Origin: Ceratodon purpureus
Taxonomy: Eukaryota > Streptophyta > Bryopsida > Pseudoditrichales > Ditrichaceae
Direction of reading: 5' to 3'
NCBI GenBank assembly: GCA_014871385.1
Contig: CM026421.1
Coordinates: 18,623,981-18,687,980 of the forward strand
DNA length: 64,000 bases
The position numbers were made by a program, and so were the translations under genes. Below, in pieces: positions 10,800 to 37,778 of this stretch (its first letter is position 1; the number at the start of each line of letters is the position of its first letter). The notes beneath the pieces are model-generated. The model worked only from the letters and a program-made list of their open reading frames with translations, did not search any database and had not been told where the DNA came from.

Positions 10800-10806
10800 T
10801 TATATA
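10800..10806 (-). promoter_or_regulatory. TATA box of family E LTR
   Basis: TATATAA on the minus strand (context GGGTATATAAGCG), about 155 bp upstream of the ATG of the LTR-borne frame and about 365 bp inside the LTR 5' end. The spacing from the LTR end is close to that of family A (about 380 bp). Confidence 0.55.
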
Positions 10807-14168: not shown

Positions 14169-17100
14169 GGAGCTGGATGACATCGTGAATCCGGAGGCCC
14201 GGAGAGTCGTAGGGTTTATGAACCCTATTTTCCATCCGGAAAAGCCCAAACGGATCACCATCAAGTGGGCGTCCGTTTTCATTGGGGCCATGATCGGTGA
14301 ATACACAGTAGACTGGGGTGTCATGATGAAGACGATAATCGACCGGCAGGTAGCCAATCTCCGGAAGACCAAGAAGCAGGCCACCTGCCTTCCGTCTTTC
14401 CTCATTCACCTCTACCGTACTAAGGGGCTGTTGGGTCCTGAGGAGGTCCGGGAGTACGATGAGCTCTTAAGCTATCAGCAGTTCGCTGAGCCGGAAGAAG
14501 TGTCCGATCAGGACGATGATGATGATGTTATCGAGGTCTCCCCCACGCCGGCTAAGAGACCCCGTCCCAGCCCGGAAAAGGGACAGCCATCCGGATCACC
14601 TCGGACTCCCACACCGGCCAAGCGAACCGTGAACACGGAGATCCAACAGCCCACCGGGCCACCGGAGCACACCGGAGATCCGTACCAGGACTTAGTTAAC
14701 CTATCGGAGCAGGCGACGACGTATGCCCGGTTCTTACAGTCGACTAGGCAGGCGGAGGGCCGGTTGGCTAGGGAAGTAATGATCATTACGGAAACAGACC
14801 GGTTGGAGGATTGCCTGAGTATTCTTCGCAAGCACCGGGACTTGGCCAGTCTCCAGGACAAGCACATGGACCGGCTAGCGAAGTACCGGGAGAGGAATCA
14901 GAAGCTCGAGCAGGAGGTGCTTGATGCCCGGAAGGATTTCAGTGACGCCCGTGACCGGGCACTCGAGGCCATCCGGTCGGTCGCCGAGATCAAGGCCACT
15001 TTAGCTCTTCCGGTAGATGTGGGAAATCAGTGCGCCGTTTACCAAGCCTTCTTAACCCGTCAACCGGATCCGACTGTCAAGAAGATTATAAAGTTCATGC
15101 ACGACCGGACGCAGGTGATGAAGGACACTTGGATGCAGATGAAGAACCTGGTGGAGATCCTCGGTTACGCAGAGGCCGGTCCGTCATCAGGACCACCGGC
15201 AGATCGAGAGGAGCCCAGACCACCGTCCCCAACCAGGGAACCGGCACCGGTGCCACCTCCAGCCTCTCCGATACGGTCGGCCATCCGGCCAGCCCAACGG
15301 GAGGTAGGACACCCGCTGGAGGATCCTATCCCGGATACCTTGAGCAGTCTGCACACTCTACCCAATTTGGATGGAGTCGAGACTGTCAACCCCGGAAACA
15401 TTCCTTTGGGACCGGACCAGAGACCACCACCGGAAGGTTTTATGCCGGTACAGGGATCTCCGGAAACGCTCCAGGTGGATCTTAGCGCAGTTCCGGTGGC
15501 GGCACGATCTCCATCCCCGGCGGTTCAAGCAGAACGATCCCGGAAGTCCAGTGAACCGTCGGCATCTGAGGCTCCGGAGGAAGGCCCCTCGTTGAAGAAA
15601 CTGAAGCGGGTACAGAAGAAGGAACGGTTGGACGGAACCCGACACAGTCCCCGGCTCGATAAGCACAAGGAGTAGGGTTAGGATAAGGACCGGATAAAAT
15701 GGCAGCGACTAACGATGGGGCTCCAGTGCACCCGGCTGCCAGTCCGGATAGATAGCGGCAGTAACTAGGAATAGAAGGCGGCCACCGGTCCGGGATTCCC
15801 GGATCCAAGATCCGGAATTTCTGGATCTCGGTGGGCCACTTGGTCGCTTTAGGAATCGATAGGTTTTAGTATTTAAGTTGGACGTTTTTCCAAGGCCGGG
15901 GCCTTGTTTTTGTACGCCGTTTTGTTGTTGCAATTGAGAATATACTTTTGGATTTGTTGTGTCAACCGGCTGCTGACGGGTCCGTTTCTGTATGGTCTGT
16001 GGTACTATTGTCTTCAGTAGTGTTCCGGAGGAGTGTTGAACGGTAGGAAGGTCTGGAGAGCGCCCGGAGAGACTGGGGAGGTGTCAAGCGTCGAGTGTTG
16101 ACGGTTTCCAGTCCCGGAAGGAGTCCGTAGGGAAAGAGAGACGTATTGCAGCAGGGCTGGTAGTCTCAAGGACACGGAGAGCCGTGTGTACACCGGGATC
16201 CGGAAACGGACCGGTCGCTTCCTGTAGATGGGATAAAAGCCGGATGTCCTACTGCGAACCAATCCGGAAGGGAGATGATATAGTTAGGATACCGTACAAC
16301 CGTAAGGTGATGTCATTGTAGTATGATTTCCGTATCCATAACCGGCACTGAGTAGTTATCCGGACCGGTCCCTAGCCATACGGAAGGATTATTACTCCAC
16401 TTCTCGGGTGGTAGATAGGAACAGTGGGGTGTCCAGCCACTTTAAGTCACGGGACGGTGGAAAATCCAGCCACTTGAAAGGATAGACGGATCAGTGGGAA
16501 CCGGCCACTAGTCTAAAAAGCCGGAAAATAGGAACGAGGCAAAAACTACCGGAGTCGGCCAACCGTCTGTAAGACGGAGTACGGTCGGACACTGGTGGTG
16601 ATTTCCGTTAAAATCTAAAAGGAAGAAAACTATAGGTCTTCGTGGGAACGAACACGGAGTGGTTCACTTTGGGGGGTATTTAGTGTCAAATAAGTGCCTT
16701 CCGGAGGAATACGGATACCACGTCGTGCTACAGGAGGCCTACAGCTCACACCTCATCCTCTGCCCTAGTAGGCTACAGCCCAGCTGCTGTCCCCGGAGGA
16801 CCCGACAGTGCTGCACCTACTCCACACCCTCTGAGGCATCCCACAGTGACGTCAGTAGTGCGACCTCCTGCTGTGCCCACAGCCCGCACCACCGACTTCA
16901 CCTCTGCGCCTCCTCGACCTCCTGTCAGTACTCAACGGAAGCAGTTGCCGTACAGAGCCTACAAGGAAGGTAGTGATCCAGATGCCCATCTCCGCTACTT
17001 TGATAAATGTGCCTGGTTCAATGGGGAAACTGATGAACAAGTGATTATCAGTGACACTGTTCGGGACGACTCTTGTGGATAAAGCCCAGAGATGGTTTGA

Positions 17101-17570: not shown

Positions 17571-20500
17571 TGTCGTAGCACGGTGGTAACGTATTCAGTT
17601 AAATAACCTAAATAACGCGTAACACGCTAAAACCGCGCCAAGTTCGTTCCCACGAAGAACCTGCGGTTGTAAACACAACTGAGAGAAGAGATAATCTAAA
17701 AGAAACACATAAAAATCCCAAACACAAACCCAAGAAACACCCAAGGCCACAAAATCTAAGGGATAGAGAAATCCCGGATACTACTTATCACGGAAAATCC
17801 CACTATCCAAAGGTGGAAAGTGGAACACTATCTACCCCCAAAGACTACAAGAAACCTATCTTATCTCTACAGGTCCAGAATTCCGACCCTAGAGCCCATC
17901 ACTATGTACATAGAAACATCCCAGAAAACCCATCGTAGTTAGCTACTCTATGACAGCATCTCTGGGATTACTAGTGGAATCTTTACTGCTATTCCACTTT
18001 TCCGTCACCAACCGACTTCCGTAACGGGAATAATTCTAGCGGTTTAAGCTAGAATGCTCCAAGAGGCTTTGTAGTTATTTCCGGGGATTTCGCCCACTGA
18101 TTTGTCAGGGTTTTCTCCCTACTTCACGTACTCCTACACTAATACTCCCTCCGCCTGGTGTTTCGATGGGGGCAGCCTTCTCGCGGAAAACTGTCCCACT
18201 CAAGTCTCGTACCACTCCCCCAGAAGGGGTGGAAATGCGGAAATGGGCCACTACCCTCACAACGGGTACAAATGCTGTTTTCCGCAGGTCACACAGAGTA
18301 GGGCCACGTTTCCACGTTTCCGATGTTGGGGTGGATCGTGGAAATGGTGAAGCTCAAATCCTTGTACCAAAGTACCCCCTTCGAATCCCCAAGTATCCTC
18401 GAGCCGGAGTACACCCTCCGCACCCAAGTCTGGTATCTGCCACTTCCACTTTCCGCCCTCTCCTCCTTTCCGCCCTTAATGTTCCTCCGTCTAACACCTT
18501 CCGCACAGGGGGTGATACCGAACCGATTAAGCAAGTACACCAATCCTAAACAGGGGCGGTTGCTAGCTCACCAAGTACCCCCTTGCATGATAGCAAGGGC
18601 TTGAATTAGGGATGTTTAAAACTTGCTTAATAGAGGCTCACAGCCCGAACTGACCTAACACGGAATACTAGCCTAACTAACCTACACAGCGTTTATGGGG
18701 ACCGGTGCAAACTCGGAAACAACAAGAATGGGAAGGAGGGACCACTCACTTTGCTCATGCACTCAAGAAAACAACTCAAGACAAATGTGGAGTAAAACAT
18801 AAAGCCTGAATTGAACAAAAGAACACAAACATCGCAAAATGGTGAGAGAAAACCCCAAGGGTTCTCCCTTTTAAACTACTGAGCCACGGGCCGCGTGATC
18901 AGAATCACGGGCCACGTGGCAGCCGACTGACTCTCCGCTACCCGAAGAGCCAAGGCCCGAAACTAGCAAAAAGACAAAAACAATAAAGCCTAACTATTCT
19001 GATCTACCTGGATCTATCTACCACGACTTCGTGCATCTGAAGCTTCCTACCAAAATTAACTCCTAGAATCTACCCACTGCCCCTCTTCTTCCTCTCCTTG
19101 GCCTCCATCTTCTTCAGCTTCCGCTTTTCCTTGCGGCCCAGCTTATCTTTCGCGGCCACTGAGGCTAGTGGCGGTCCAACTGTCGCATCGTGGCCAAGTG
19201 GGCCTGAGATCTCGGCGGCGCGCTCCTTCAGATCCGAGGAATCCGGCGCAAGTGGGGCTGCCAGCTGACTGACTTCCGGCTGCCGTGAACCACGTGGCTG
19301 AGTGGCCGGTGTCACTTGCTCCTTCTCCGAGAAAAGTGGCGGCGGGTTTCTGGAAACTACCTGGAAAGTCACTGAAGGGCTGGCCGGTGATGCCTCTGCC
19401 ACGTGGCCGCTTCTCAGGGTCTCCTTATCGCCGGCGGAAATAGCCGGGGTGGAATTCAGATCCACTGTCACAGGGGCGGAAACAGGGTCCGGGGTAGTAA
19501 TGTCCGTAATATACTCTTCTTCTCCCGCTGCTTCGGTTTCCGCTTCGGCCCTTGTGCCTCCCGGGGTCTTCTCAGCTGAACTCGAGGAAGTCTCCTCATC
19601 CTCCGAAGACTCATCTGATGACGGGAACAGCTGATCCAAAGTAGCCACCAGAGTCCTCATTGCTCTTAGGGCCGCGTCCATCTTGCTCCCCTGATCCATA
19701 ACAAAGGGAACCAACTTGGTCCCGGAGACGTGGCCCGCGTTCTTCAAATCTGCATCGAACATCTTGGCCTTGAGCCATACATCTCCGGGGACTCCCACCG
19801 TATCCATGACCTTCCTTGTGACGCTGGCTGCCTCCCTCATCTGTTTCTGGAGCTCCTTCTTCTCTGCCCCTACCTTCGCAAGCTTCTCCAAGACCTTCCG
19901 ATTTTCCGCCGTGAGTTGGTCCACCTTCCCTTCCAGCTTCCGTTGGTGGCGCGGATCCTGTACCGCTTCCCGGACTGCTGTCACTAAGGTATCCCGCGGA
20001 GGGTTCCCTACTATTGCTCCCAACTGCTGGAGCTGAACCTCATTAACCCTCCACCTATCTCTTACCCCCTCCAGGTCGCGGATGATGGCATCCAGTGACA
20101 CTTCCCTTCTGGGCTGACTGTCCGTTCCAGCTTCCACTACTCGGGTGGCGGACCTGGTCCGCGTTGCAGGTGTCCCTTCCGTCGTTTTCCTCTTCTTTGC
20201 CGCTGGCTGCTCCTCGGTACTGACCTCTATAACCTCCTCTTCCTTTGATTCGTCCGGGCCGAGGTCGGGTTCCGAGTCAGTGGTCTGCAATTCCCTCATG
20301 ATCTGGTGGCCCGCCCACTGGACCGTCTCCTCTTCCGTGAGCAGGTTTCCATGCTCGTACAGGTGGTAAAGGAATGGCCCAATGTATGAGGGCTGCCCAC
20401 GCTTGGTAGCCGTGGCCAGCTTGTGTACCACCTCCCCTATGATACTCCCCCAGTCCACTACCCTCTCCCCCGAGAAGGAGAGAAGAATAGTAGTGGCTAG

Positions 20501-21960
20501 GGTGAGAGTTACATTGTAAGGCTTCTCAGGGCTTAGTATCGGCACTAGAAATGCCAAGACCCTCCTCTCCCTCTTGTCCTTACAGTCCTTCACATAATAC
20601 CCATACTTCGCATCCAACTTCTGGGCAAACTTACCTCTGGTACAGTCGTCCTTCTTGGATGCCATGCCCTCACCTCCGGTTGGAAACCCGTAAACTCCTG
20701 TCCAGAGCTCCGCACTCCAGCGATCGGGCCGCCCCCGCACAGTAGTCGCGTACCGCGGATCCACCTTCCCGGTAGTTAGTTCCTTCACCATAGCCTCGCT
20801 TCGCACCCTCCAGGACTTCTTCAATAAACCACCGCAGCCCATCCTCTTAAGGTCCTCCTCTAGGTCACGGCCCTCCTCTGCATTGCTGGGGATACCCACG
20901 TGGATCTTTCGGAGACCCACTGTCCCGTCTTGGCTTCGCTTCTTGGGCTGTGCGGCCATGGCGTCCCACTGTCGGTGCGTACTTCTAACCCTCCGGCCCC
21001 TCAGTCGCGGTCGGCGCTCCCAATCCTCCGCTGTCTGCTTGGTGACTGCTCCGCAGTGCCGCGATCCCACTGTCGGTGCTGTCCACTTTGCTTGGGTGGC
21101 GCCGCGGTTAGGGTTTCCCACCTCAGGCTGCTACCGACTACCACTAACCCGAGCTCCCTTCTAACACTGTGCTGCGACCTAGGGTTTCTCCACACGACGT
21201 GCTGCCCACTGTGGCTGCGTCCCGACTACCACCGCCCCTCTAAGAGATGTCTCAATTCGGCGCTGTCCGCTGTCGGTGCTTCCCGCCTCCAGCGTTATCC
21301 GCTACCTGCCAAAAGTTATTTCTACAGTGCGCTCCGCCTCTCTCGGATCCCACTAGTTCTATCCCTCACCCTAGACGGCCGCTACCGACTACTACTCACA
21401 TCTCTCCTCTAAACCCTCACCTCAGAAAGATGGAAAGAGAGAACTCCTCTCTCGAAGGAGGGGCTTCTAACCCTAGCCGCCGGTCCGATATCCGGGTCGA
21501 AACCCGGGATGGGTGAGATCCGGCTTCTGCATGGGCCGGGTATCGCCTTTCCGCTTTCTACCTCTAAGTTTCCACCAAAAGGGCGGAAATCTAACTATCT
21601 CTAATTACTACTTTTTAACATATTTAACTATTTTTATTTTTCCTTAATTTCTATTTCTATCATTCTAATCTAATGTCTACAATTAATTCTAACTAACTAT
21701 AACTTCTATCCTTTTTAACACTTTTAATCTAAAAACATAGACAAAACAATAATTCATGGAAAGTCGTGACACGACACTCCATGACTCAAGCGAAAGGGAA
21801 ACGGAGGCGAAGCAAGGGATACTGGGAGTACAAGTGGAAAGAAGAATCGGTGAGCAGAAACAACAAAGGAAAGGGGGAGGACGAAGATCAACTCTCCTCA
21901 GGAATTTATAGAGAGCTGGAGCGGAATTCCCAAGGAAGGAAGGACGGGACAACATGATCA
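17571..21960 (-). mobile_element. Probable solo LTR of family C (about 4.39 kb)
   Basis: The left end TGTCGTAGCACGG interrupts the family B gag frame just after GGGCATGAAG. At 21960 the sequence reads ATGATCA followed by tgaag, a copy of the 5 bp preceding the left end (17566-17570), and a gag-like B sequence seems to resume. TG...CA ends plus the 5-bp duplication support one LTR insertion without an internal region. The right end is less sure than the left, because it rests on a 7-bp match. The LTR carries a minus-strand 683-codon open frame related to the LTR proteins of families A and E. Confidence 0.6.
19070..21121 (-). CDS. LTR-borne reading frame of family C
   Basis: Open frame of 683 codons. 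The likely start is the ATG at 20959 (GCCATGGCC, protein start MAAQPKKRSQDG), which aligns with the family E protein start and gives about 629 residues; upstream sequence is only open, not clearly coding. Conserved N-terminal blocks shared with families A and E: CGGLLKKSW, TVRGRPDRWSAELWTGVYGF, RRVLAFLVPILSPEKPYNVT, GERVVDWGSIIGEVVHK and PFLYHLYEHGNLLTEEE. A predicted coiled-coil follows (VDQLTAENRKVLEKLAKVGA), then a Ser/Glu/Thr/Pro-rich region and a basic Lys/Arg C-terminus (possible nuclear signal). No catalytic motif is recognised. It looks whole despite lying in an apparent solo LTR. Confidence 0.65.
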   Translation of the reverse strand: MGNPNRGATQAKWTAPTVGSRHCGAVTKQTAEDWERRPRLRGRRVRSTHRQWDAMAAQPKKRSQDGTVGLRKIHVGIPSNAEEGRDLEEDLKRMGCGGLLKKSWRVRSEAMVKELTTGKVDPRYATTVRGRPDRWSAELWTGVYGFPTGGEGMASKKDDCTRGKFAQKLDAKYGYYVKDCKDKRERRVLAFLVPILSPEKPYNVTLTLATTILLSFSGERVVDWGSIIGEVVHKLATATKRGQPSYIGPFLYHLYEHGNLLTEEETVQWAGHQIMRELQTTDSEPDLGPDESKEEEVIEVSTEEQPAAKKRKTTEGTPATRTRSATRVVEAGTDSQPRREVSLDAIIRDLEGVRDRWRVNEVQLQQLGAIVGNPPRDTLVTAVREAVQDPRHQRKLEGKVDQLTAENRKVLEKLAKVGAEKKELQKQMREAASVTRKVMDTVGVPGDVWLKAKMFDADLKNAGHVSGTKLVPFVMDQGSKMDAALRAMRTLVATLDQLFPSSDESSEDEETSSSSAEKTPGGTRAEAETEAAGEEEYITDITTPDPVSAPVTVDLNSTPAISAGDKETLRSGHVAEASPASPSVTFQVVSRNPPPLFSEKEQVTPATQPRGSRQPEVSQLAAPLAPDSSDLKERAAEISGPLGHDATVGPPLASVAAKDKLGRKEKRKLKKMEAKERKKRGSG

Positions 21961-24881: not shown

Positions 24882-25938
24882 TGTAGCACGACGTGGTATA
24901 CGTATTCCTCCGGAAGGCACTTAATTGACACTAAACACCCTCCAAAGTGAACCACTCCGTGTTCGTTCCCACGAAGACCTATAGTTTTCTTTCTTTTAGA
25001 CTTTAACGGAAATCACCACCAGTGTCCGACCGTACACCGTCTTACAGACGGTTGGACGAATCCGGTAGTTTTTGCCTCGTTCCTATTTTCCGGCTTTTTA
25101 GACTAGTGGCCGGTTCCCACTGATCCGTCTATCCTTTCAAGTGGCTGGATTTTCCACCGTCCCGTAACTTATAGTGGCTGGACACCCCACTGTTCCTATC
25201 TACCACCCGAGAAGTGGAGTAATAATCCTTCCGTACGGCTAGGGACCGGTCCGGATAACTACTCAGTGCCGGTTACGGATACGGAAATCATACTACAATG
25301 ACATCACCTTACGGCTGCGCAGTATTCTACTATACTATCTCCCTTCCGGATTGGTTCGCAGTAGGACATCCGGCTTTTATCCCATCTACAGGAAGCGACC
25401 GGTCCGTTTCCGGATCCCGGTGTACACACGACTCTCCGTGTCCTTGAGACTACCAGCCCTGCTGCAATACGTCTCTCCTTCCCTACGGGCTCCTTCCGGG
25501 ACTGGAAACCGTCAACACTCGACGCTTGACACCTCCCCAGTCTCTCCGGGCGCTCTCCCGACCTTCCTACTGTTCAACACTCCTCCGGAACACTACTGAA
25601 GACAATAGAACCACAAACCATACGGCAACGGACCCGTCAGCAGCCGGTTGACACAACAAATCCAAAAGTATATTCTAAATTGCAACAACAAAACGGCGTA
25701 CAAAAACAAGGCCCCGGCCTTGGAAAAACGTCTATCTTAAATACTAAAACCTATCGGTTCCTAAAGCGACCAAGTGGCCCACCGAGATCCAGAAATTCCG
25801 GATCTTGGATCCGGGAATCCCGGACCGGTGGCCGCCTTCTATTCCTAGTTACTGCCGTTATCTATCCGGATTGGCAGCCGGGTGCACTGGAGCCCCATCG
25901 TTAGTCGCTGCCATTTTATCCGGTCCTTATCCTAAACC

Positions 25939-27807
25939 CTACTCCTTGTGCTTATCGAGCCGGGGACTGTGCCGGGTTCCGTCCAACCGTTCCTTCCGCT
26001 GTACCCGCTTCAGTTTCTTCAACGGGGGGTCTTCTTCCGGAGCCGCAGATGCTGACGGTTCGCTGGACTTCCGGGATCGTTCTGTTTGAGCTGCCGGGGA
26101 TGGAGATCGTGCCGCCACCGGAACTGCGCTGAGATCCACCTGGAGCGTTTCCGGAGATCCCTGTACCGGTATAAAATCTAACGGTGGTGATCTCTGTTCC
26201 GGTTCCAAGGGAATGTTTCCGGGGTTAACAGTCTCGACTCCATCCAAGTTGGGTAGAGTGTGCAGACTGCTCAAGGTGTCCGGAATAGGATCCTCCAGCG
26301 GGTGTCCTATCTCCTGTTGGGCGGGCCGGATGGCCGACCGTATCGGAGAGGCTGGAGGTGGCACCGGTGCCGGTTCCCTGGTTGGGGACGGTGGTCTGGG
26401 ATCCTCTTGATTTGCCGGTGGCCCTGATGACGGACCGGCCTCTGCGTAACCGAGGATTTCCACCAGGTTCTTCATCATCGTCCATGTGTCCCTCATCACC
26501 TGCGTCCGGTCGTGCATGAACTTTATAATATTCTTCGTAGTCGGATCCGGTTGACGGGTCAGGAAAGCTTGGTAAACGGCACACTGATTGGCCACATCTA
26601 CCGGAAGAGCTAAAGTGGCTTTGATCTCGGCGACCGACCGGATGGCCTCGACTGCCCGCTCACGGGCGTCATTGAAATCCTTCCGGGCATCACGCACCTC
26701 CTCCTCGAGCTTCCGATTCGTCTCCCGGAACTTCGCCAGCCGGTCCATGTGCTTCTCCTGGAGACCGGCCAAGTCCCGCTGCTTGCGAAGAATGTTCAGG
26801 CAATCCTCCAACCGGTCCGAACCCGTAAGGATCATTACCTCCCTAGCCAACCGGCCCTCCGCCTTCCTGGTCGACTGTAAGAACCGGGCATATGTCGTTG
26901 CCTGCTCCGATAGGTTAACTAAGTCCTGGTACGGATCTCCGGTGTGCTCCGGTGGTCCGGTGGGCTGTTGGATCTCCGTGTTCAGGGTTCGCTTGGCCGG
27001 TGCGGGAGTCCGAGGTGATCCGGATGGCTGTCCTTTTTCCGGGCTAGGACGGGGTCTCTTAGCCGGCGTGGGGGAGACCTCAATAACATCATCCTCGTCG
27101 TCCTGGTCGGACACTTCTTCCGGCTCAGCGAACTGCTGATAGCTTAAGAGCATATCGTACTCCCGGACCTCTTCAGCAGTCAACAGTCCCTTAGTACGGT
27201 AGAGGTGAATGAGGAAAGACGGAAGGCAGGTGGCCTGCTTCTTGGTCTTCCGGAGATTGGCCACCTGTCGGTCGACTATCGTCTTCATCATGACCCCCCA
27301 GTCCACCGTGAATTCCCCGATCATGGCCCCAATGAAAACGGACGCCCACTTGTTGGTGATCCGTTTGGGCTTTTCCGGATGGAAGATAGGGTTCATAAAC
27401 CCTACTACTCTCCGGGCCTCCGGATCCGCAATGTCATCCACCACCCATCCTTCTCTCGGGTCTCCGGTCCCCTTGAGATACTGATGTACGAAGTCCCGGG
27501 GCTCCGGCGTCGAGACCTCGCCGCCGGAGTTCTTGAAACCATACGTCTCCCTCCAGAGTTGTGCCGACCACTTATCCGGCTCTCCCCGGATGGTTCCTCG
27601 ATTCTCAGGATCCTTGACGAGGATCTCCTGGGCCGGAAGGGCAAACTTCCAACCCCATGCCTTGTCCAGTAGGACCTCACAACCCATAGACTCTAAGGCG
27701 GTCCGGAGGAGCTCCTTCTCCTTCTCTCCGGCCGGTATCAACGGCATCACCCGTTGTACCCTGAACGACTGTCCTTCCGCCGCCGGTTCCTTCCCTTTCC
27801 TACCCAT
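25939..27807 (-). CDS. LTR-borne 622-aa protein of family A (3' LTR copy)
   Basis: Identical in predicted protein to the copy at 35320-37188 (described there). Being in the 3' LTR, it has its own upstream TATA box at 28010-28016 and would be transcribed toward the flanking spacer at 24.9 kb. Confidence 0.75.
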   Translation of the reverse strand: MGRKGKEPAAEGQSFRVQRVMPLIPAGEKEKELLRTALESMGCEVLLDKAWGWKFALPAQEILVKDPENRGTIRGEPDKWSAQLWRETYGFKNSGGEVSTPEPRDFVHQYLKGTGDPREGWVVDDIADPEARRVVGFMNPIFHPEKPKRITNKWASVFIGAMIGEFTVDWGVMMKTIVDRQVANLRKTKKQATCLPSFLIHLYRTKGLLTAEEVREYDMLLSYQQFAEPEEVSDQDDEDDVIEVSPTPAKRPRPSPEKGQPSGSPRTPAPAKRTLNTEIQQPTGPPEHTGDPYQDLVNLSEQATTYARFLQSTRKAEGRLAREVMILTGSDRLEDCLNILRKQRDLAGLQEKHMDRLAKFRETNRKLEEEVRDARKDFNDARERAVEAIRSVAEIKATLALPVDVANQCAVYQAFLTRQPDPTTKNIIKFMHDRTQVMRDTWTMMKNLVEILGYAEAGPSSGPPANQEDPRPPSPTREPAPVPPPASPIRSAIRPAQQEIGHPLEDPIPDTLSSLHTLPNLDGVETVNPGNIPLEPEQRSPPLDFIPVQGSPETLQVDLSAVPVAARSPSPAAQTERSRKSSEPSASAAPEEDPPLKKLKRVQRKERLDGTRHSPRLDKHKE

Positions 27808-28009
27808 CCTGCTAAATCCTCCTCTCCGTCACTCCGGTAACACCTGCACGCACGATCCTCACCACAATCTCTCGCCTAACGGAAACACTTCCGTCTCACC
27901 GTCTCTCTCCTACCGTCTAACCCTAACTGCGCTCACCGCCTTGGAGCGCAAGGACCCGTCGTGCCACAAAATGACAAAGAGAAAGGAAGAGCATGGCGGT
28001 CCTTCCTCC

Positions 28010-28016
28010 TTTTATA
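28010..28016 (-). promoter_or_regulatory. TATA box, 3' LTR of family A
   Basis: TATAAAA on the minus strand (context GGTATAAAAGGAGG), about 205 bp upstream of the LTR-borne ATG at 27807 and about 385 bp from the LTR end. Confidence 0.6.
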
Positions 28017-28397
28017 CCTGCCCTCGCGCCCACCCGTTCGTAGCTCATCATGACGGACGGTCGTAGCCCCTCATCATTGGACGGTCGCGACCGGCGGCGC
28101 TTTAATGGTTGCAGCCATTACCCCCGTGTGCGTTGTACCGTTTGGCGGCTATCCTTAAGTCTGCCGGGTCAGGGCTCTGACATATGGGCTGTACCCGTCT
28201 CTCCTCCACCGCAGACGACCGGATCTCTCCCGGCTGACCTTCCGGTCACTGATTTATCCAACCGACCGGCTTAACCGGTTGTTTTACTTATAGGCTTAGT
28301 ACTTCCGTATTTCTAACATAAAATTTTTAATTTTTTTTATCATTTTCCTACCGGAATTAGTATTCCGGTGTGTCAACCGTGGAAATCACTTTCCACA

Positions 28398-28410
28398 TTA
28401 CCCCTTTTTC
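28398..28410 (-). other. Polypurine tract of family A
   Basis: GAAAAAGGGGTAA on the minus strand, immediately upstream of the 3' LTR (TGTGGAAAGTG). It overlaps the very end of pol. It is the expected plus-strand primer. Confidence 0.85.
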
Positions 28411-31400
28411 ACCCGTGAGCGTCCTCGCGAACGCCATCCGGTCTGTATAGTTTGACCCGGGATCCATTCACCCTAGTATCCATTGGATATCCTTCTAGGT
28501 CTGAAAGTTGTAATGACCCATTGGAATAAATCTTATCAACCCGGAACGGTCCCATCCAGCGAGTATGTAACTTACCCGGGAAATTCTTGTACCGGCTGTC
28601 ATAGACTAGAACCAATCCTCCTTCTTCGATTCCTTTATCCGTTGTGATTCGCCTGTCATACACTTCCTTCCTTTTGGCTTGGACCTCCTTTGTCCGTTCC
28701 AATGCCTCCATCCGGTCTTCCTCCATCCGGTCGATGACCTGTAGACGGTCGTCGAGTGCATCCGTTTTATCTCCGTGGTTGGCTGCGAGTACCCTCAACG
28801 TCTCTACTTCCGTCTCGATGGACTGAAGTACCTCCTGTCCGTATACCAGATAATACGGAGTCCGTCCGGTTGTACTCTTGTGTGCCGTGTTGTACGCATA
28901 GACCGCCGATGTCAGTTTCCGGTCCCAGTCTGTCTTATGTGAGGTCACCACCTTGGTCAGAATCTTACAGATTATTCCGTTGGCACGTTCCGTCAATCCG
29001 TTCGCCTTAGGATTGTACGGTGTGGTCTTCCGGTGTTTGACCTCGTACTGGTTGGTCAAACCGGCCACCACTTCGTTCAGGAAATGTGTTCCCCGGTCGC
29101 TCACTATCTCCAACGGATGGCCAAATCGCATCATTATCCTTTCGAATATGAACCGGGCGGATGTCTCGGCATCATTCTTCCGGGTGGCTCTGGCTTCTAC
29201 CCACTTCGTGGCGTAGTCCGTCGCCAAAATGATGTACCGGTGCCTCTGAGTGCCTACCGGTTGAATTGGCCCAATAAAATCCACTCCCCATTTCTCAAAC
29301 GGTGCTAGGGGAACAATGGGAGTTAACGGCCAGTGATGCCGTACGGCCGGAGCTCCTATCCGTTGGCAGGGATCGCATTCTTTTATAAATTGATGAACGT
29401 CCCGGTGAAGGTGTGGCCACCAGTATCCGGCCTCGCGAATCTTCTGTACGGTGATGACGGATGCATAGTGTCCTCCGGCCGGTCCATCATGCAAAGCCCG
29501 GATGACCTTCCGTCGATAGATGGGTTCTAGGCAGCGTCGGAGTTTTTCATCCGCCCCTAGTTTGAAAAGCAATTCTCCGACGAGGAAGTACGGTGCCACC
29601 CGGTGCTGAAACACACTCTTCTCCTCCCTACTCAGTCCTTCCGGATACCTCTGAGTCTGGAGATAGTTCTTAATCCGCTGAAGATCCTGGTCCTCCCCTT
29701 CGTCCTCTTGAATTCGGTAGACGGAAGACGTACCTTCTACGACCGGAAGGTCGCGGGGGTCCGGTATATCCTGTATACTGGTACCAACCGGGTATTCTTC
29801 CGGGAATTCATCCGGAAACTCTGAAGATATCTCCTCCTTGCTCTCCTTTCCCCGTTGTCGCGACAAATAATCTGCATTGAGGTTAGACTTCCCGGATTTG
29901 ACAATAACTTCGTAGTTGAACTCCTGAAGAAGTAATATCCACCGGGCCAACCTTCCGGACAGATCCGGTTTGTTGACTAGATACTTCAGCGAGTCATGAT
30001 CCGTATGGAAGATGACTTTGTACCCTAATAGGTAATGGCGAAATTTCTTGCACGCATAAATGACGGCTAGAGCCTCCCGTTCGGTTGTCGTGTAATTCTT
30101 CTCGGCCGGATTCATCTGCCGGCTGGCATAATAGATGGGTCGTTCCCGGCCCTCGTCATCCAATTGCCATAGGATAGCTCCCACACACCAACCGGATGCA
30201 TCCAAAGTGACATGAAAAGATTTCGACCAATCCGGTGGGGCTAGTATAGGGGCTGTGACCAACCGTCTCTTCAGTTCTTCAAAAGCCTGTTGACGGATTT
30301 CCGTCCAGAGGTACTCTTCTTCCTTCTTGAGTAGCTCCGTTAGTGGCATTGCCAACCGGGCATAATTCTCAATGAACCTCCGGTAGTATCCCACACACCC
30401 CAGGAATCCTCTGAGTTCCCGGAGGTTGGTGGGGGCAAGAAGGGCCAACATGACTATTACTTTTGCTACATCCACTGCTATTCCCTTCCGGCTGACTATG
30501 TGTCCGAGCAATAGTCCGGCTAACATACCGAAAAAACACTTGCCCGGATGGAGCTTGAGTTTAGTCTCCCGGCATCGCTGGAACGTTTTCCGGAGGTAGT
30601 CCAGATGTTCCACCCACCGGCTGAACACCGCAAAGTCGTCAATGAAAACTTCCAGGAAATGTTTTAAGAAATCCTGAAATATGTCCATCATCAACCGTTG
30701 AAACGTTCCGGGAGCATTGCACAATCCGAAAGGCATCCGGTTGAAAGCGTAGGTACCCCAATCAGTGGTAAAAGTAGTTTTCAGTTGGTCCTCCTTCCGG
30801 ATGGACACCTGATTGTATCCGGAAAACCCATCTAGAAAACTGAAGCATTCCTGACCGGCCACGTGATCGAGCACCATGTCGATGAAGGGTAAAGGGAAAT
30901 GATCCTTCTTCGTGGCTGCATTCAGCTTCCGGAAATCCTGACATACCCGGATTTTGACTTTACCATCCGGACCCGTTTTCTTTGGTACTACTACAATCGG
31001 TGACACCCACTCGGAGTTATTCACTGGATAAATAAAACCGGCTTCCAGCAGTTTATCTAGTTCCTCCTTCACCATCATGGAGTACTTTGGGTTGAGCCGG
31101 TACTGCCTTTGGCGAACCGGAACCGCTCCCTCCATTAGGTCGATGTGATGTTCGCCCAATTCCGGCGGTATACCCACCAGATCCGATGGAAGCCAGGCGA
31201 AGACATCATCATATTCCGTAAGCAGTTCCAAATACTGTGCCCGCTCCCGGTCCGTCAGTCCTTTTCCCAAATAGAAGGTCCTACCGGTTTCCGTCTTCAC
31301 TGCTTCGTAATCTCCCGGTGCTACCACATTCTTGACCGGTTCGCTAGCATCCGTTTCTACGGACCCCGGAAGGGCTGACCAGGGTAATTCACTGGTCTTT

Positions 31401-32593
31401 GACCCGGATATCCCTGTTTTGATTATCCCATCTGCGAACTGTCCTTTAATCCATTCGGAGGTCAACGGAACGCTTGCTTCTCCTAAGGCCCGATCATCGT
31501 CCTTCCTGCCTTCCGGTGGTCGGTTCGGTACTTCGGTTCCATCCGGCTTCTGTTCAGGTACCGGGTTACGGAATCCCAGATCTTCTTCTGATACCTCCCG
31601 GAATTCTTGTACATGATATGACTGCAGGGAATCCGAGTTTTCTGAACTTGTCCAATCGGAAGTGTAACCATCCGTCTCACTTGTTTCCCCCAGATGGAGC
31701 TCCGGTTTCCACGATAGCAAAACAGCCGGATCCCCGAAAGTAAAAGCCTTCTTCGCCCAATTTACCTTGACTCCGGCTAGATATAGCCACGGCCGTCCGA
31801 GTAACAGTGGAAACGGATTTCCTTCCTCCACCCGGATAACCAAATAGTTGAGCGGGTAAGTGAGTCCGGAAATCTTTGTCGGTACTGCCGACAGTTTCCC
31901 CACTGGTACTACTCGAGACTGGTCTGCCATCCGTAGAGTCTGATTGGTAGGCTCAAAGACAGTGTACCCTAAATCATTGGCCGTACTCTCTAGTAGTAGA
32001 TTTACTCCGGATCCTCCATCTACCGGTACCTTCTGGATAAGGCATCCGTCGATCTCCACAGCTATTTCCGGAGCCCCGAAATCCTCCATCTCGGCAAAAT
32101 TAACTGCGACGGAAGGCAGCTTAATCTTCCGTTTACGGGTCCGGATTAAGCCGGACTTAACCTGCTTCTGATAATTAGGATTATCATGTAACAGTTGTCC
32201 TATGGTGACATTGGCCGGCTGGGCCTGAATATCCTGGAGGATGTCGTACCTGTCGGCTTTCGCCCGGACCTCCGGTTGGATAATTTCCGGAATCTCGCTG
32301 AATGTCACCTTCCGGCCCTCCTGTACTTGAGGTAACCCAGCAACTACCTCCGGTCCAATGTCCGGCATAGTTGGTAGGGTCTTGACCCCTTTTTCAACCG
32401 GGACCGTCTCCGGGGGCACCTCCTTCTCTGATTCCCCGGAAGTTTCTGAAGATTCCGGTCGGCTACTCTCTTTCCTCTGTGACCTGGTCCGAACCCCAGA
32501 CTTCCTCCTTTTCTTTTCTGAATCCTGTCTCCGGGTGGAACTACGCGAACTGACCTGATGGATACCCACGCCGGTCTCTCCTCGTGGTTCCAC
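28409..32593 (-). CDS. Family A pol polyprotein
   Basis: 1394 open codons in the same frame as gag, beginning three codons after the gag stop. Approximate residues: basic linker 1-60; retropepsin with V-D-G-G-S-G-V-N at about 191-198 and LLGRPWL; reverse transcriptase about 490-700 with active-site F-I-D-D at 650-653; RNase H about 790-900 (DASGWCVGAILWQ, TDHDSLKYL); integrase HHCC finger about 1034-1076; catalytic D, D and E at about 1105, 1166 and 1202; then a C-terminal region with NGSLQLSDLEG and VNGSRVK. There is no chromodomain and no second RNase H. Expression is probably by stop read-through from gag. It looks whole. Confidence 0.92.
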   Translation of the reverse strand: MEPRGETGVGIHQVSSRSSTRRQDSEKKRRKSGVRTRSQRKESSRPESSETSGESEKEVPPETVPVEKGVKTLPTMPDIGPEVVAGLPQVQEGRKVTFSEIPEIIQPEVRAKADRYDILQDIQAQPANVTIGQLLHDNPNYQKQVKSGLIRTRKRKIKLPSVAVNFAEMEDFGAPEIAVEIDGCLIQKVPVDGGSGVNLLLESTANDLGYTVFEPTNQTLRMADQSRVVPVGKLSAVPTKISGLTYPLNYLVIRVEEGNPFPLLLGRPWLYLAGVKVNWAKKAFTFGDPAVLLSWKPELHLGETSETDGYTSDWTSSENSDSLQSYHVQEFREVSEEDLGFRNPVPEQKPDGTEVPNRPPEGRKDDDRALGEASVPLTSEWIKGQFADGIIKTGISGSKTSELPWSALPGSVETDASEPVKNVVAPGDYEAVKTETGRTFYLGKGLTDRERAQYLELLTEYDDVFAWLPSDLVGIPPELGEHHIDLMEGAVPVRQRQYRLNPKYSMMVKEELDKLLEAGFIYPVNNSEWVSPIVVVPKKTGPDGKVKIRVCQDFRKLNAATKKDHFPLPFIDMVLDHVAGQECFSFLDGFSGYNQVSIRKEDQLKTTFTTDWGTYAFNRMPFGLCNAPGTFQRLMMDIFQDFLKHFLEVFIDDFAVFSRWVEHLDYLRKTFQRCRETKLKLHPGKCFFGMLAGLLLGHIVSRKGIAVDVAKVIVMLALLAPTNLRELRGFLGCVGYYRRFIENYARLAMPLTELLKKEEEYLWTEIRQQAFEELKRRLVTAPILAPPDWSKSFHVTLDASGWCVGAILWQLDDEGRERPIYYASRQMNPAEKNYTTTEREALAVIYACKKFRHYLLGYKVIFHTDHDSLKYLVNKPDLSGRLARWILLLQEFNYEVIVKSGKSNLNADYLSRQRGKESKEEISSEFPDEFPEEYPVGTSIQDIPDPRDLPVVEGTSSVYRIQEDEGEDQDLQRIKNYLQTQRYPEGLSREEKSVFQHRVAPYFLVGELLFKLGADEKLRRCLEPIYRRKVIRALHDGPAGGHYASVITVQKIREAGYWWPHLHRDVHQFIKECDPCQRIGAPAVRHHWPLTPIVPLAPFEKWGVDFIGPIQPVGTQRHRYIILATDYATKWVEARATRKNDAETSARFIFERIMMRFGHPLEIVSDRGTHFLNEVVAGLTNQYEVKHRKTTPYNPKANGLTERANGIICKILTKVVTSHKTDWDRKLTSAVYAYNTAHKSTTGRTPYYLVYGQEVLQSIETEVETLRVLAANHGDKTDALDDRLQVIDRMEEDRMEALERTKEVQAKRKEVYDRRITTDKGIEEGGLVLVYDSRYKNFPGKLHTRWMGPFRVDKIYSNGSLQLSDLEGYPMDTRVNGSRVKLYRPDGVREDAHG

Positions 32594-32602
32594 CGGTAAC
32601 CG

Positions 32603-34168
32603 TCAATTTGGCGGATTCTCTACCCCGTCTTTGTGACCGTAGTTGAGTCCGGTACGCTCCCGGGGAGGTTCTTCCACTTGCTTATAGATAGCCCTAGGCC
32701 TAACCGGTTGTTGACATTGGGGTGACTTATGGCCGTACTGACCACAGTTTTGACACGGAAGTTCCAACGGTGCGCCTTGACCTCCTCGGTGTGGACAATT
32801 GTTAGCATAATGACCGGCTTCTCCACAAATATAACAGCATCCAAACTGCCGTTCCACCGAGACGGGTGGTCGAGCCGGCGGGGCCGGATGTCCACCGGAT
32901 GGATAGCCCATTCCGGGTCGCGGTCTGATAACCGGCTGCATCATCCGTCCACGGCCATAGGCCGGGTTTACCTGGTAAACCGGTAGCATCTCCACTTCTT
33001 CCTCTTCATAAGCAGGTTCCGCAAAGAATACTGACCCCTCTTCGTCCACAAACTGCACTCTCTTGGGCGCTCCGTGTGGGCATTCCCGGTTGTAATGTCC
33101 CGGCTTTCCGCAGTTGGTGCACCACACATTGTTCCGGACGGTGGGCAGCGCTTTCCGTGCTTTCTTCTCTTCCGCCATCTGGACTTTGAGTTCTTCAATG
33201 CTGTTCACCAGATCTTTGATCATCCGTTTCTCCGATGGGTATTCCTCCTTTACTCGGACTATCGTCCGTTCTTTGTCCTTCCGGTAGCCCTTGCTACCTG
33301 ACGCCTTCCGTCGTGAGCGGTCCTCCTCACTGCTGCTGCTTCCGGTTTCCGAGCTGTCTTCGGAGCTGGATCCACTGGATTCTGAACTAGAATCCCGGCT
33401 CCTCCGGACCTTTCGGAGACGTCTAGAGGTCTTCCCCGCCTTACGATACTGCCGTATGGACTGCTTGGAGTTTTCATAGTTCTGGGCGGCCTCCATGGCC
33501 TCCGGTAAAGTCTGTGGCCGGGTCTGCCTTACTTGGAACCCCATCCGGTCGGGTAACCCAGCAACGTACCATTCTACCTGGATACTGTTTGCAATTCCGG
33601 GACTTAGTTTATGAATTAAACTCCTAACCCTCTGTCCGTACCGGCGGACCGACTCTTCCGGCTCCATCCGGATTTTACTAAGTTTTCCCAATGTGCGGGC
33701 TTCTCCTCCTACCTCCCGGAAGGCCCTCCGGAAGGCATCGGATAGCAAACCCCAACTCCTTCGCACGTTGTCCGGTTCCTCTTGGTACCACTGGAGTGCC
33801 TCCTTCTTGAGTAATCCCTGGAACAACCGTAACTTAATTGCTTCGTCCTCTTGGTTGGCAGCAGCCGTGGCGTTGAACTCGCTTAGCCATTCGTCCACGT
33901 CCTCCCGGCCATCGCCCCTGAACTTCCGATACTTCAGTCTGGAGAACGTCCGGGCCATAGGAAGACCCGCTACCGGTCCCCCGGTCACCGGCCCGGGTGG
34001 TACTGTCCCACCCTGACCTCCGGATCCGGAAGTCCCGGCTATCTCTTGATCTGTGTCTTCAATGGATTCTGCTCTAGTAGTGACGAATGGTCTGGCTTCC
34101 GTCTCCTGATCACCCTTCTTCTTTCTACTAGACCTCCGTACTCCTTCCGGCTCAGAATTCGGATTCAT
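32603..34168 (-). CDS. Family A gag polyprotein, 521 aa
   Basis: The ATG at 34168 lies about 70 nt after the primer site. A Retrotrans_gag-type capsid domain occupies about residues 75-225 (FRGDGREDVDEWLSEFNATA, LQWYQEEPDN). A Ser/Glu/Arg-rich spacer (about 250-300) follows, then three CX2CX4HX4C knuckles at about 350-363, 445-458 and 472-485 for RNA binding. Three knuckles is more than the usual one or two in plant Ty3 gag. It terminates at UGA followed by CGGUUA with pol in the same frame, a context known to promote read-through. It looks whole. Confidence 0.92.
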   Translation of the reverse strand: MNPNSEPEGVRRSSRKKKGDQETEARPFVTTRAESIEDTDQEIAGTSGSGGQGGTVPPGPVTGGPVAGLPMARTFSRLKYRKFRGDGREDVDEWLSEFNATAAANQEDEAIKLRLFQGLLKKEALQWYQEEPDNVRRSWGLLSDAFRRAFREVGGEARTLGKLSKIRMEPEESVRRYGQRVRSLIHKLSPGIANSIQVEWYVAGLPDRMGFQVRQTRPQTLPEAMEAAQNYENSKQSIRQYRKAGKTSRRLRKVRRSRDSSSESSGSSSEDSSETGSSSSEEDRSRRKASGSKGYRKDKERTIVRVKEEYPSEKRMIKDLVNSIEELKVQMAEEKKARKALPTVRNNVWCTNCGKPGHYNRECPHGAPKRVQFVDEEGSVFFAEPAYEEEEVEMLPVYQVNPAYGRGRMMQPVIRPRPGMGYPSGGHPAPPARPPVSVERQFGCCYICGEAGHYANNCPHRGGQGAPLELPCQNCGQYGHKSPQCQQPVRPRAIYKQVEEPPRERTGLNYGHKDGVENPPN

Positions 34169-34235
34169 GCGTTTTCTACAACCTGACTTGGGTTAGTGAC
34201 AACCGTAGAAATCCGGAGAAAGAAAATCATATAAA

Positions 34236-34253: not shown

Positions 34254-35319
34254 AAAATCACATGTAGCACGACGTGGTATACGTATTCCTCCGGAAGGCA
34301 CTTAATTGACACTAAACACCCTCCAAAGTGAACCACTCCGTGTTCGTTCCCACGAAGACCTATAGTTTTCTTTCTTTTAGACTTTAACGGAAATCACCAC
34401 CAGTGTCCGACCGTACACCGTCTTACAGACGGTTGGACGAATCCGGTAGTTTTTGCCTCGTTCCTATTTTCCGGCTTTTTAGACTAGTGGCCGGTTCCCA
34501 CTGATCCGTCTATCCTTTCAAGTGGCTGGATTTTCCACCGTCCCGTAACTTATAGTGGCTGGACACCCCACTGTTCCTATCTACCACCCGAGAAGTGGAG
34601 TAATAATCCTTCCGTACGGCTAGGGACCGGTCCGGATAACTACTCAGTGCCGGTTACGGATACGGAAATCATACTACAATGACATCACCTTACGGCTGCG
34701 CAGTATTCTACTATACTATCTCCCTTCCGGATTGGTTCGCAGTAGGACATCCGGCTTTTATCCCATCTACAGGAAGCGACCGGTCCGTTTCCGGATCCCG
34801 GTGTACACACGACTCTCCGTGTCCTTGAGACTACCAGCCCTGCTGCAATACGTCTCTCCTTCCCTACGGGCTCCTTCCGGGACTGGAAACCGTCAACACT
34901 CGACGCTTGACACCTCCCCAGTCTCTCCGGGCGCTCTCCCGACCTTCCTACTGTTCAACACTCCTCCGGAACACTACTGAAGACAATAGAACCACAAACC
35001 ATACGGCAACGGACCCGTCAGCAGCCGGTTGACACAACAAATCCAAAAGTATATTCTAAATTGCAACAACAAAACGGCGTACAAAAACAAGGCCCCGGCC
35101 TTGGAAAAACGTCTATCTTAAATACTAAAACCTATCGGTTCCTAAAGCGACCAAGTGGCCCACCGAGATCCAGAAATTCCGGATCTTGGATCCGGGAATC
35201 CCGGACCGGTGGCCGCCTTCTATTCCTAGTTACTGCCGTTATCTATCCGGATTGGCAGCCGGGTGCACTGGAGCCCCATCGTTAGTCGCTGCCATTTTAT
35301 CCGGTCCTTATCCTAAACC

Positions 35320-37188
35320 CTACTCCTTGTGCTTATCGAGCCGGGGACTGTGCCGGGTTCCGTCCAACCGTTCCTTCCGCTGTACCCGCTTCAGTTTCTT
35401 CAACGGGGGGTCTTCTTCCGGAGCCGCAGATGCTGACGGTTCGCTGGACTTCCGGGATCGTTCTGTTTGAGCTGCCGGGGATGGAGATCGTGCCGCCACC
35501 GGAACTGCGCTGAGATCCACCTGGAGCGTTTCCGGAGATCCCTGTACCGGTATAAAATCTAACGGTGGTGATCTCTGTTCCGGTTCCAAGGGAATGTTTC
35601 CGGGGTTAACAGTCTCGACTCCATCCAAGTTGGGTAGAGTGTGCAGACTGCTCAAGGTGTCCGGAATAGGATCCTCCAGCGGGTGTCCTATCTCCTGTTG
35701 GGCGGGCCGGATGGCCGACCGTATCGGAGAGGCTGGAGGTGGCACCGGTGCCGGTTCCCTGGTTGGGGACGGTGGTCTGGGATCCTCTTGATTTGCCGGT
35801 GGCCCTGATGACGGACCGGCCTCTGCGTAACCGAGGATTTCCACCAGGTTCTTCATCATCGTCCATGTGTCCCTCATCACCTGCGTCCGGTCGTGCATGA
35901 ACTTTATAATATTCTTCGTAGTCGGATCCGGTTGACGGGTCAGGAAAGCTTGGTAAACGGCACACTGATTGGCCACATCTACCGGAAGAGCTAAAGTGGC
36001 TTTGATCTCGGCGACCGACCGGATGGCCTCGACTGCCCGCTCACGGGCGTCATTGAAATCCTTCCGGGCATCACGCACCTCCTCCTCGAGCTTCCGATTC
36101 GTCTCCCGGAACTTCGCCAGCCGGTCCATGTGCTTCTCCTGGAGACCGGCCAAGTCCCGCTGCTTGCGAAGAATGTTCAGGCAATCCTCCAACCGGTCCG
36201 AACCCGTAAGGATCATTACCTCCCTAGCCAACCGGCCCTCCGCCTTCCTGGTCGACTGTAAGAACCGGGCATATGTCGTTGCCTGCTCCGATAGGTTAAC
36301 TAAGTCCTGGTACGGATCTCCGGTGTGCTCCGGTGGTCCGGTGGGCTGTTGGATCTCCGTGTTCAGGGTTCGCTTGGCCGGTGCGGGAGTCCGAGGTGAT
36401 CCGGATGGCTGTCCTTTTTCCGGGCTAGGACGGGGTCTCTTAGCCGGCGTGGGGGAGACCTCAATAACATCATCCTCGTCGTCCTGGTCGGACACTTCTT
36501 CCGGCTCAGCGAACTGCTGATAGCTTAAGAGCATATCGTACTCCCGGACCTCTTCAGCAGTCAACAGTCCCTTAGTACGGTAGAGGTGAATGAGGAAAGA
36601 CGGAAGGCAGGTGGCCTGCTTCTTGGTCTTCCGGAGATTGGCCACCTGTCGGTCGACTATCGTCTTCATCATGACCCCCCAGTCCACCGTGAATTCCCCG
36701 ATCATGGCCCCAATGAAAACGGACGCCCACTTGTTGGTGATCCGTTTGGGCTTTTCCGGATGGAAGATAGGGTTCATAAACCCTACTACTCTCCGGGCCT
36801 CCGGATCCGCAATGTCATCCACCACCCATCCTTCTCTCGGGTCTCCGGTCCCCTTGAGATACTGATGTACGAAGTCCCGGGGCTCCGGCGTCGAGACCTC
36901 GCCGCCGGAGTTCTTGAAACCATACGTCTCCCTCCAGAGTTGTGCCGACCACTTATCCGGCTCTCCCCGGATGGTTCCTCGATTCTCAGGATCCTTGACG
37001 AGGATCTCCTGGGCCGGAAGGGCAAACTTCCAACCCCATGCCTTGTCCAGTAGGACCTCACAACCCATAGACTCTAAGGCGGTCCGGAGGAGCTCCTTCT
37101 CCTTCTCTCCGGCCGGTATCAACGGCATCACCCGTTGTACCCTGAACGACTGTCCTTCCGCCGCCGGTTCCTTCCCTTTCCTACCCAT
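35320..37188 (-). CDS. LTR-borne 622-aa protein of family A (5' LTR copy)
   Basis: ATG at 37188 (GGATGGGTAGG), 622 residues, uninterrupted. Residues about 20-230 carry the blocks shared with families E and C (LLDKAWGWK; TIRG-P--W-A-LW-E-YGF; RRVVGFMNPIFHPEKPKRIT; FIGAMIGEFTVDWGVMMKTI; LPSFLIHLYRTKGLL). An acidic stretch (EVSDQDDEDDVIEV), a likely coiled-coil (about 330-400) and a Pro-rich segment (PSPTREPAPVPPPASPIRSA) follow, with a basic C-terminus KKLKRVQRKERLDG. No signal peptide, membrane segment or catalytic motif is visible. The fold of residues 120-230 distantly recalls the 'putative plant transposon protein' domain; this is from memory and unverified. A nuclear or RNA/DNA-binding role is only a guess. 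Confidence 0.78.
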   Translation of the reverse strand: MGRKGKEPAAEGQSFRVQRVMPLIPAGEKEKELLRTALESMGCEVLLDKAWGWKFALPAQEILVKDPENRGTIRGEPDKWSAQLWRETYGFKNSGGEVSTPEPRDFVHQYLKGTGDPREGWVVDDIADPEARRVVGFMNPIFHPEKPKRITNKWASVFIGAMIGEFTVDWGVMMKTIVDRQVANLRKTKKQATCLPSFLIHLYRTKGLLTAEEVREYDMLLSYQQFAEPEEVSDQDDEDDVIEVSPTPAKRPRPSPEKGQPSGSPRTPAPAKRTLNTEIQQPTGPPEHTGDPYQDLVNLSEQATTYARFLQSTRKAEGRLAREVMILTGSDRLEDCLNILRKQRDLAGLQEKHMDRLAKFRETNRKLEEEVRDARKDFNDARERAVEAIRSVAEIKATLALPVDVANQCAVYQAFLTRQPDPTTKNIIKFMHDRTQVMRDTWTMMKNLVEILGYAEAGPSSGPPANQEDPRPPSPTREPAPVPPPASPIRSAIRPAQQEIGHPLEDPIPDTLSSLHTLPNLDGVETVNPGNIPLEPEQRSPPLDFIPVQGSPETLQVDLSAVPVAARSPSPAAQTERSRKSSEPSASAAPEEDPPLKKLKRVQRKERLDGTRHSPRLDKHKE

Positions 37189-37390
37189 CCTGCTAAATCC
37201 TCCTCTCCGTCACTCCGGTAACACCTGCACGCACGATCCTCACCACAATCTCTCGCCTAACGGAAACACTTCCGTCTCACCGTCTCTCTCCTACCGTCTA
37301 ACCCTAACTGCGCTCACCGCCTTGGAGCGCAAGGACCCGTCGTGCCACAAAATGACAAAGAGAAAGGAAGAGCATGGCGGTCCTTCCTCC

Positions 37391-37397
37391 TTTTATA
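37391..37397 (-). promoter_or_regulatory. TATA box, 5' LTR of family A
   Basis: TATAAAA on the minus strand (GGTATAAAAGGAGG), conserved in position in all three family A LTRs in the window. The probable transcription start is about 30 bp further, near 37365. Confidence 0.65.
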
Positions 37398-37778
37398 CCT
37401 GCCCTCGCGCCCACCCGTTCGTAGCTCATCATGACGGACGGTCGTAGCCCCTCATCATTGGACGGTCGCGACCGGCGGCGCTTTAATGGTTGCAGCCATT
37501 ACCCCCGTGTGCGTTGTACCGTTTGGCGGCTATCCTTAAGTCTGCCGGGTCAGGGCTCTGACATATGGGCTGTACCCGTCTCTCCTCCACCGCAGACGAC
37601 CGGATCTCTCCCGGCTGACCTTCCGGTCACTGATTTATCCAACCGACCGGCTTAACCGGTTGTTTTACTTATAGGCTTAGTACTTCCGTATTTCTAACAT
37701 AAAATTTTTAATTTTTTTTATCATTTTCCTACCGGAATTAGTATTCCGGTGTGTCAACCGTGGAAATCACTTTCCACA

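Follow-up and report, generated by a model that had tools for sequence, protein, structure and literature searches.

The window, which is the whole stretch of 64,000 nucleotides of Ceratodon purpureus DNA analysed here (contig CM026421.1, positions 18,623,981 to 18,687,980), contains an LTR retrotransposon, element A, that carries a protein gene within its LTRs. The features of element A are as follows:

34263..37778 (-): 5' LTR, 3516 bp, 100% identical to 24882-28397, with TG..CA ends
24882..28397 (-): 3' LTR, with the identical gene inside it at 25939-27807
37779-37783 and 24877-24881: target repeat GCAGC, flanking the element outside both LTRs
35320..37188 (-): LTR protein gene, 622 aa from ATG, LTR nt 591-2459
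37390..37397 (-): TATA box, TATAAAAG, LTR nt 382, upstream of the LTR gene
35118..35124 (-): TATA-like box TATTTAA, a putative second promoter, LTR nt 2655, 196 nt past the stop codon
34236..34253 (-): primer-binding-site-like sequence TGGCGCCGCTGCCGGGGA, which recurs after the 5' LTRs of one C and one G element
32603..34168 (-): gag, with Retrotrans_gag, Ty3_capsid and zinc knuckles
28409..32593 (-): pol, with RT, RNase H and integrase, in the frame of gag past a TGA
28398..28409 (-): polypurine tract, AAAAAGGGGTAA, exact in G before the 3' LTR and a close variant in C

Because the frame lies inside the LTR, the gene is present at both ends of the element. Identical LTRs, a target repeat, a primer site, a polypurine tract, gag, RT, RNase H and integrase identify element A as a young Ty3/gypsy-type element. 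A single TGA at 32603-32605 (-) divides the same-frame gag and pol, suggesting read-through. A Pfam search of A pol with E values up to 1 gave no chromodomain, by which chromoviruses are recognized, and at the same threshold no second archaeal-type RNase H, by which Tat elements are recognized, but RT-linked RNase H models only. The Phygy lineage is described, in the available part of the source, as preferring NCGN for insertion (PMC6317226); five-bp target repeats were read in nine copies (A and copies elsewhere), none of the nine containing CG, and no such repeat was found at the E copy of the window.

Two further LTR families, C and E, and a second A LTR lie in the window:

7520..11171 (-): LTR of family C, 3652 bp, the 3' LTR of a 5'-truncated copy within an A LTR
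9106..10647 (-): LTR protein gene of C, truncated by a stop at 513 aa, with the frame going on at 8458-9105
17571..21776 (-): LTR of family E, 4206 bp, with no internal part found adjoining
19070..20959 (-): LTR protein gene of E, 629 aa
6610..7523 (+): first part of the second A LTR, in opposite orientation, 92% identical to the A LTR
14174..16733 (+): remainder of the second A LTR, past the interposed C copy, 94.5% identical, where a frame at 14149-15675 overlaps the LTR-protein part

The labels A, C and E refer here to 24882-37778, 7520-11171 and 17571-21776; an earlier reading of the sequence alone, referred to below as the sequence-only reading, had named its families E and C without coordinates. 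The boundaries of the C and E LTRs were set from copies elsewhere in the genome, and the E frame common with family F starts at the ATG at 20959, not at the GTG at 21121. The sequence-only reading had given frames of 600-700 codons. The C copy of the window stops at 513 aa; in other C copies, the frame runs for 731-737 codons from the ATG (five of five compared), and the relative C' (L038) has a stop near the same place as the window's copy. The C copy at 7520-14170 is truncated on its 5' side, has replaced approximately 36 bp of the A LTR, and shares 2426 pol bases with window 1-2426 at 99.8% identity. It may be a break-repair copy rather than a normal insertion.

The LTR proteins are homologous. 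BLASTP scores were 110 bits for A-E, 111 for A-C, and 176 for E-C, against best scores of 25.0, 27.3, and 28.9 in 500 shuffles each, and the N-domains share 32-45% identity between A, C/C', and E/F; the sequence-only reading was thus right that LTRs of 3.5-4.4 kb hold homologous long frames. It had also called the LTR families unrelated, which is contradicted by the rest of the elements. Among A, C, and G, pol is 64-66% and gag 49-53% identical, and all three have the same primer site, showing that the families are related and that conservation of the LTR protein is below that of gag and pol; E is joined to them through its LTR 3' module, which is 95-97% identical to that of F and G. In protein databases, five matches to A and seven to the family alignment correspond to eight distinct proteins, ranging from P0001 (78%, full length) to P0007 and P0008, whose contigs measure 186 and 260 kb. 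No relatives of the LTR protein were found in the viral contigs searched, and an Rfam search gave no match.

The LTR gene has been under purifying selection in its past. Whole-frame dN/dS was 0.24-0.32 in seven of seven comparisons within the C group, the 75%-identical C' included, and 0.14-0.36 in four of four F/G comparisons; as the F-G values past residue 230 take in a shifted frame, residues 1-230 were also taken alone and gave 0.18-0.19. E against F gave 0.17 twice, at dS above 2, and wrong-frame controls on the same codons gave 1.15-1.71 in six of six cases. The comparison among A, C, and E, which the sequence-only reading had proposed as a check, is at or near saturation at synonymous sites, and its dN/dS is not interpretable. 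The matched stretch was free of stops in 58 of 71 scored A copies and 76 of 84 scored C copies, and 48 of the 71 and 26 of the 84 were paired at element spacing; these lists score the best candidates only, which biases the intact fractions upward. The low ratios beside controls above 1, the stop-free copies, and the relatives in other sequence sets all speak against a passenger frame held open by chance or base composition, which we regard as highly improbable, and agree with the earlier view of a real, selected protein family in LTRs.

What a passenger frame would accommodate is the loss of the gene in some subfamilies. In subfamily G (L027-L030), whose LTR pairs are 99.9% identical, the coil carries a frameshifting deletion that leaves 326 aa, so that the N-domain only is kept. 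In subfamily H (L039-L041; C6:84119144, C6:87479897, C11:15752542), the start and last part of the LTR are kept, and the N-domain and coil are gone; L039 adjoins an open pol frame. G and H each include full-length copies whose paired LTRs are at element spacing, as is one of the three H LTRs named above. Among the LTR modules that are gene-less or unassigned, three pairs are separated by 8290-8291 bp. In the E group, to which the LTR-based survey for gene-less copies was confined, a listed frame lies within 4 kb in 14 of 40 LTR 3' modules. Among the remainder, a nested C element (L024) appears to separate C1:28031767 from its frame, and 25 are unassigned, the three read being without the gene. 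The LTR gene is therefore not obligatory: it was selected but can be lost. The sequence-only reading had taken it for a stable part of the elements, which is not supported, and had proposed that absence from most LTRs of a family would mark chance or passenger sequence; the frame is indeed absent from most modules of the E group, though selection indicates a past function.

Comparison of the E LTR with those of F and G revealed a mosaic. The LTRs are 50-58% alike over nt 1-2600 (rising to approximately 80% within the first 120 nt) and 95-97% alike from nt 2760, and a short segment that encodes the basic C end is approximately 90% alike; the switch lies approximately 80-95 nt past the stop codon and approximately 100-115 nt before the TTTAAAAG box. 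LTR 17571-21776 and L025-L030 thus combine a diverged 5' module, which holds the gene, with a near-identical 3' module.

The promoter layout bears on which transcript carries the gene. A TATA box precedes the ATG of the gene by 209 nt in A and by 159 nt in C (LTR 7520-11171), at LTR nt 366-382. A TATA box 155-210 bp upstream had been claimed for A and E; in LTR 17571-21776, this word search gave no TATA box before the gene. There is no ATG from 25 nt past the TATA box to the gene in A, C, and C', and the leader bin is 94% identical between C and C', compared with 57-86% for the 100-nt bins that span nt 501-2700. Further along, TATA-like boxes lie 166-196 nt past the stop codon in A, C, E, and F; among 500 shuffles per family, 21-37 had a box in that 70-nt slot, the slot having been chosen after looking. 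On our reading of this arrangement, the gene would be transcribed from the upstream promoter and the genomic RNA from the downstream one, and the second box and the recombination junction past the gene would favour a location of the gene in U3.

The sequence-only reading had instead suggested that the gene would be the first frame of the genomic RNA. On this view, the upstream TATA box would start the genomic RNA, and the gene would lie in R or U5, as the primer site is downstream of it. It would be an extra pre-gag frame like that of Retrosat2, which a displaced primer site had brought within the LTR. The TATA box with its ATG-free leader in A and C would suit this arrangement, and elements of grasses are known, from the available part of PMC3485330, to have extra frames before gag-pol. 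However, both the box past the stop codon in four families and the junction past the gene favour a second, downstream start, and the nine ATGs that lie between the LTR gene and gag in A would demand reinitiation, shunting, or splicing. We consider a first frame of the genomic RNA to be on the unlikely side.

The LTR protein is predicted to begin with a helical N-domain, followed by a coiled coil and a tail that is disordered and has a basic end. In the AlphaFold2 model of the A protein, the N-domain extends to approximately residue 227 and long helices occupy residues 292-455, followed by the disordered tail; 10-residue pLDDT means in the N-domain are 65-93, mostly above 80 from residue 21, with an overall pLDDT of 62.7 and a pTM of 0.41. 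A, C, E, and F all carry basic clusters at the C end; a basic patch close to residue 250 is seen in A, E, F, and G and is absent from C. No 19-residue window exceeded a KD value of 1.6 in seven proteins, and an Env-like protein was ruled out by this absence of a membrane segment. Pfam gave no family above the cut-off for the LTR proteins. The distant kinship that had been proposed with the 'putative plant transposon protein' domain (PF20167), whose motif order we take by eye to be similar, was not recovered, as hmmscan of nine distinct LTR proteins at E up to 10 gave no match to it. DUF1985 was absent from the Pfam listings of the scanned proteins; a genome search for it found none here nor in 14 controls, so that this search shows little. 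A sequence search of the PDB gave 16 matches, all with E of 0.12 or worse and on residues in or near the coil, and structure comparison with the PDB, with the whole 622-residue model rather than the N-domain alone as the query, gave no useful match.

This architecture would also fit a cytoplasmic or particle-associated helper, acting in assembly or as an RNA chaperone and recognizing no DNA. A coiled coil with a disordered charged tail is common in such helpers, and the positions of the PDB sequence matches count for this role as well. The basic C-end clusters and the CGGA words described below count against it, and we hold such a helper to be rather unlikely.

A new observation of this analysis is the density of CGGA words in the elements, with flanks that are specific to each family:

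24882-37778, 7520-14170, and 1-4646 of the window, and L027, L031, L034, L038, and L039: excess of CGGA-type words

Counted on both strands, CGGA occurs 29.3 times per kb in A, 32.5 and 34.7 in C, 15.9 in G, and 15.0 in E, compared with 4.7 in a host stretch and 1.0-10.1 across 15 neighbouring stretches. Codon-preserving shuffles, which keep the protein and its codon usage, gave CGGA z values in pol of 6.6 (A), 10.2 (C), 5.0 (G), and 3.3 (H), in the LTR gene of 5.3 (A) and 7.2 (C), with weak values of 2.6 in E and 2.7 in F, and in gag of 3.9 (A) and 5.1 (C), with no excess in G (0.2). CCGG and CCGGA are in excess in every examined part of A, coding or not, and the noncoding parts of the A and C LTRs are also enriched in CGGA; the spacing of CCGG sites in A has no clear periodicity. 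The flanks differ by family: in A the word is preceded by C; in C it is preceded by C or T and followed by A or T; in G and E it is preceded by G and followed by AA. Family-specific 6-mers were found in the elements. In pol, A has 75 CCGGA against 31-33 expected (codon phases 28, 26, 21), C has 44 TCGGA against 19 (21, 9, 14), and G has 28 CGGAA against 9.8 and 23 GCGGA against 11, the latter mostly in one codon phase (17, 4, 2). Between C and C', which are 75% identical, CGGA is kept in place in 62% of cases, second among 113 4-mers with a median of 41%.

Among control open frames in neighbouring stretches, some of which overlap, 47 of 48 were within 2 sd of expectation; the exceptional one, of 157 aa at 48-56 kb, has six CGGA against 2.2 expected (sd 1.1). 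L021 holds pol-like stretches of another element, without a CGGA excess. At L034:5296-9857 (-) lies a neighbouring element with frames of 1010 and 486 aa and no Pfam match; the two largest control frames come from this flank. The large frame in this flank has an enriched word of its own, GTGACA/CGTGAC (GTGACA 13 against 3.3). Given this flank and the one control frame, word enrichment may be a wider habit. The link between word and protein is correlational and spans three groups that are related to one another.

The CGGA words may alternatively serve the RNA or the particle, through packaging, export, or gag binding, independently of the LTR protein. In A and C they also run throughout gag and pol, and A has an excess on the sense strand (CCGGA 102, TCCGG 69), which leaves room for a role in RNA. 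Enrichment on both strands and in the noncoding parts of the A and C LTRs tells against such a role, which we judge doubtful.

The reading that we tentatively favour, at somewhat less than an even chance, combines an LTR gene with its own promoter in U3 and a putative nuclear anti-silencing regulator that would recognize CGGA and act in trans. The upstream TATA box (LTR nt 366-382, in A and C) would be the gene's own promoter; the gene with a terminator further along the LTR would make a complete gene of every LTR that retains it, solo LTRs included; and the genomic RNA would begin at the second box past the gene, which would place the gene in U3. The protein would then enter the nucleus, pair through its coiled coil, recognize CGGA words, and favour the expression of its own family's DNA against silencing. 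Action in trans would allow derivatives that have lost the gene (G in part, and H) to amplify while keeping the words, and the LTR pairs at element spacing in H and G, where the gene is lost or truncated, count in its favour; the loss in H also fits plain dispensability. Against this combination count the lack of the basic patch near residue 250 in C, the weak excess in the E and F LTR genes and its absence from G gag, the single prevailing codon phase of GCGGA in G pol, and the lack of a TATA word upstream of the E gene. A further step, which we regard as unlikely, is that the recognition word would be spread through the whole element, gag and pol codons included, with flanks changing with the protein, so that each LTR keeping the gene would be a putative anti-silencing gene.

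LTR-located protein genes have rarely been described. The sag gene of mouse mammary tumour virus is a protein gene in an LTR, and its product has a membrane anchor. Likened by description, both genes are LTR-borne, whereas the LTR protein has no membrane segment and its host belongs to another kingdom. A sag-like gene would lie in U3, the location that the second box and the junction would favour here. The titles and abstract openings of the open-licence papers listed describe no plant element whose LTR contains a protein gene. The extra frames of plant LTR retrotransposons are placed, in the available parts of the sources, in the internal region upstream or downstream of the polyprotein (PMC6317226, PMC7264820). 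Like the LTR gene, they are accessory beside gag-pol, and long LTRs occur in such non-chromovirus elements; unlike them, the frame described here lies in both LTRs, upstream of the primer site, and so outside the position by which an eORF is defined in these accounts. Retrosat2 ORF0 lies upstream of ORF1 and, according to the available part of its description, has not been found outside grasses (PMC3485330). As that description goes, Retrosat2 shares with the elements studied here LTRs longer than 3 kb and a frame upstream of gag-pol that is less conserved than gag-pol, and its position before ORF1 and its confinement to grasses set ORF0 apart from the LTR gene (PMC3485330). On the accounts available, Retrosat2 ORF0 would be the nearest analogue in position and VANC the nearest in logic.

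VANDALs are DNA transposons, unlike the elements with the LTR gene. As far as the available part of the source describes them, the words of VANC are found mostly in noncoding DNA, in tandem repeats (PMC5735166). On the same partial account, VANC resembles the LTR protein as an accessory protein that is less conserved than the transposase, with dense family-specific words in its own element, as are found here; in contrast to VANC words, those of A and C run through gag, pol, and the LTR gene. The DUF1985 domain of VANC has no match in the LTR proteins. We largely infer that the putative regulator would resemble the VANC anti-silencing proteins in its logic. If the words are sites of the protein, the system would be an LTR-retrotransposon counterpart of VANC with its sites written into coding sequence, and the co-evolution of protein and word would be testable between families that coexist in a single genome. 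Solo LTRs would be expressible genes rather than dead remnants if every LTR contains the complete gene. The arrangement is real and unusual, and the word pattern gives the LTR gene a testable function.

Two other repeats lie in the window. A strongly strand-skewed stretch at 45857-47666 is a nine-copy array with a period of approximately 189 bp, and direct repeats approximately 860 bp apart at 44069-45793 are 100% identical over 209-300 bp.
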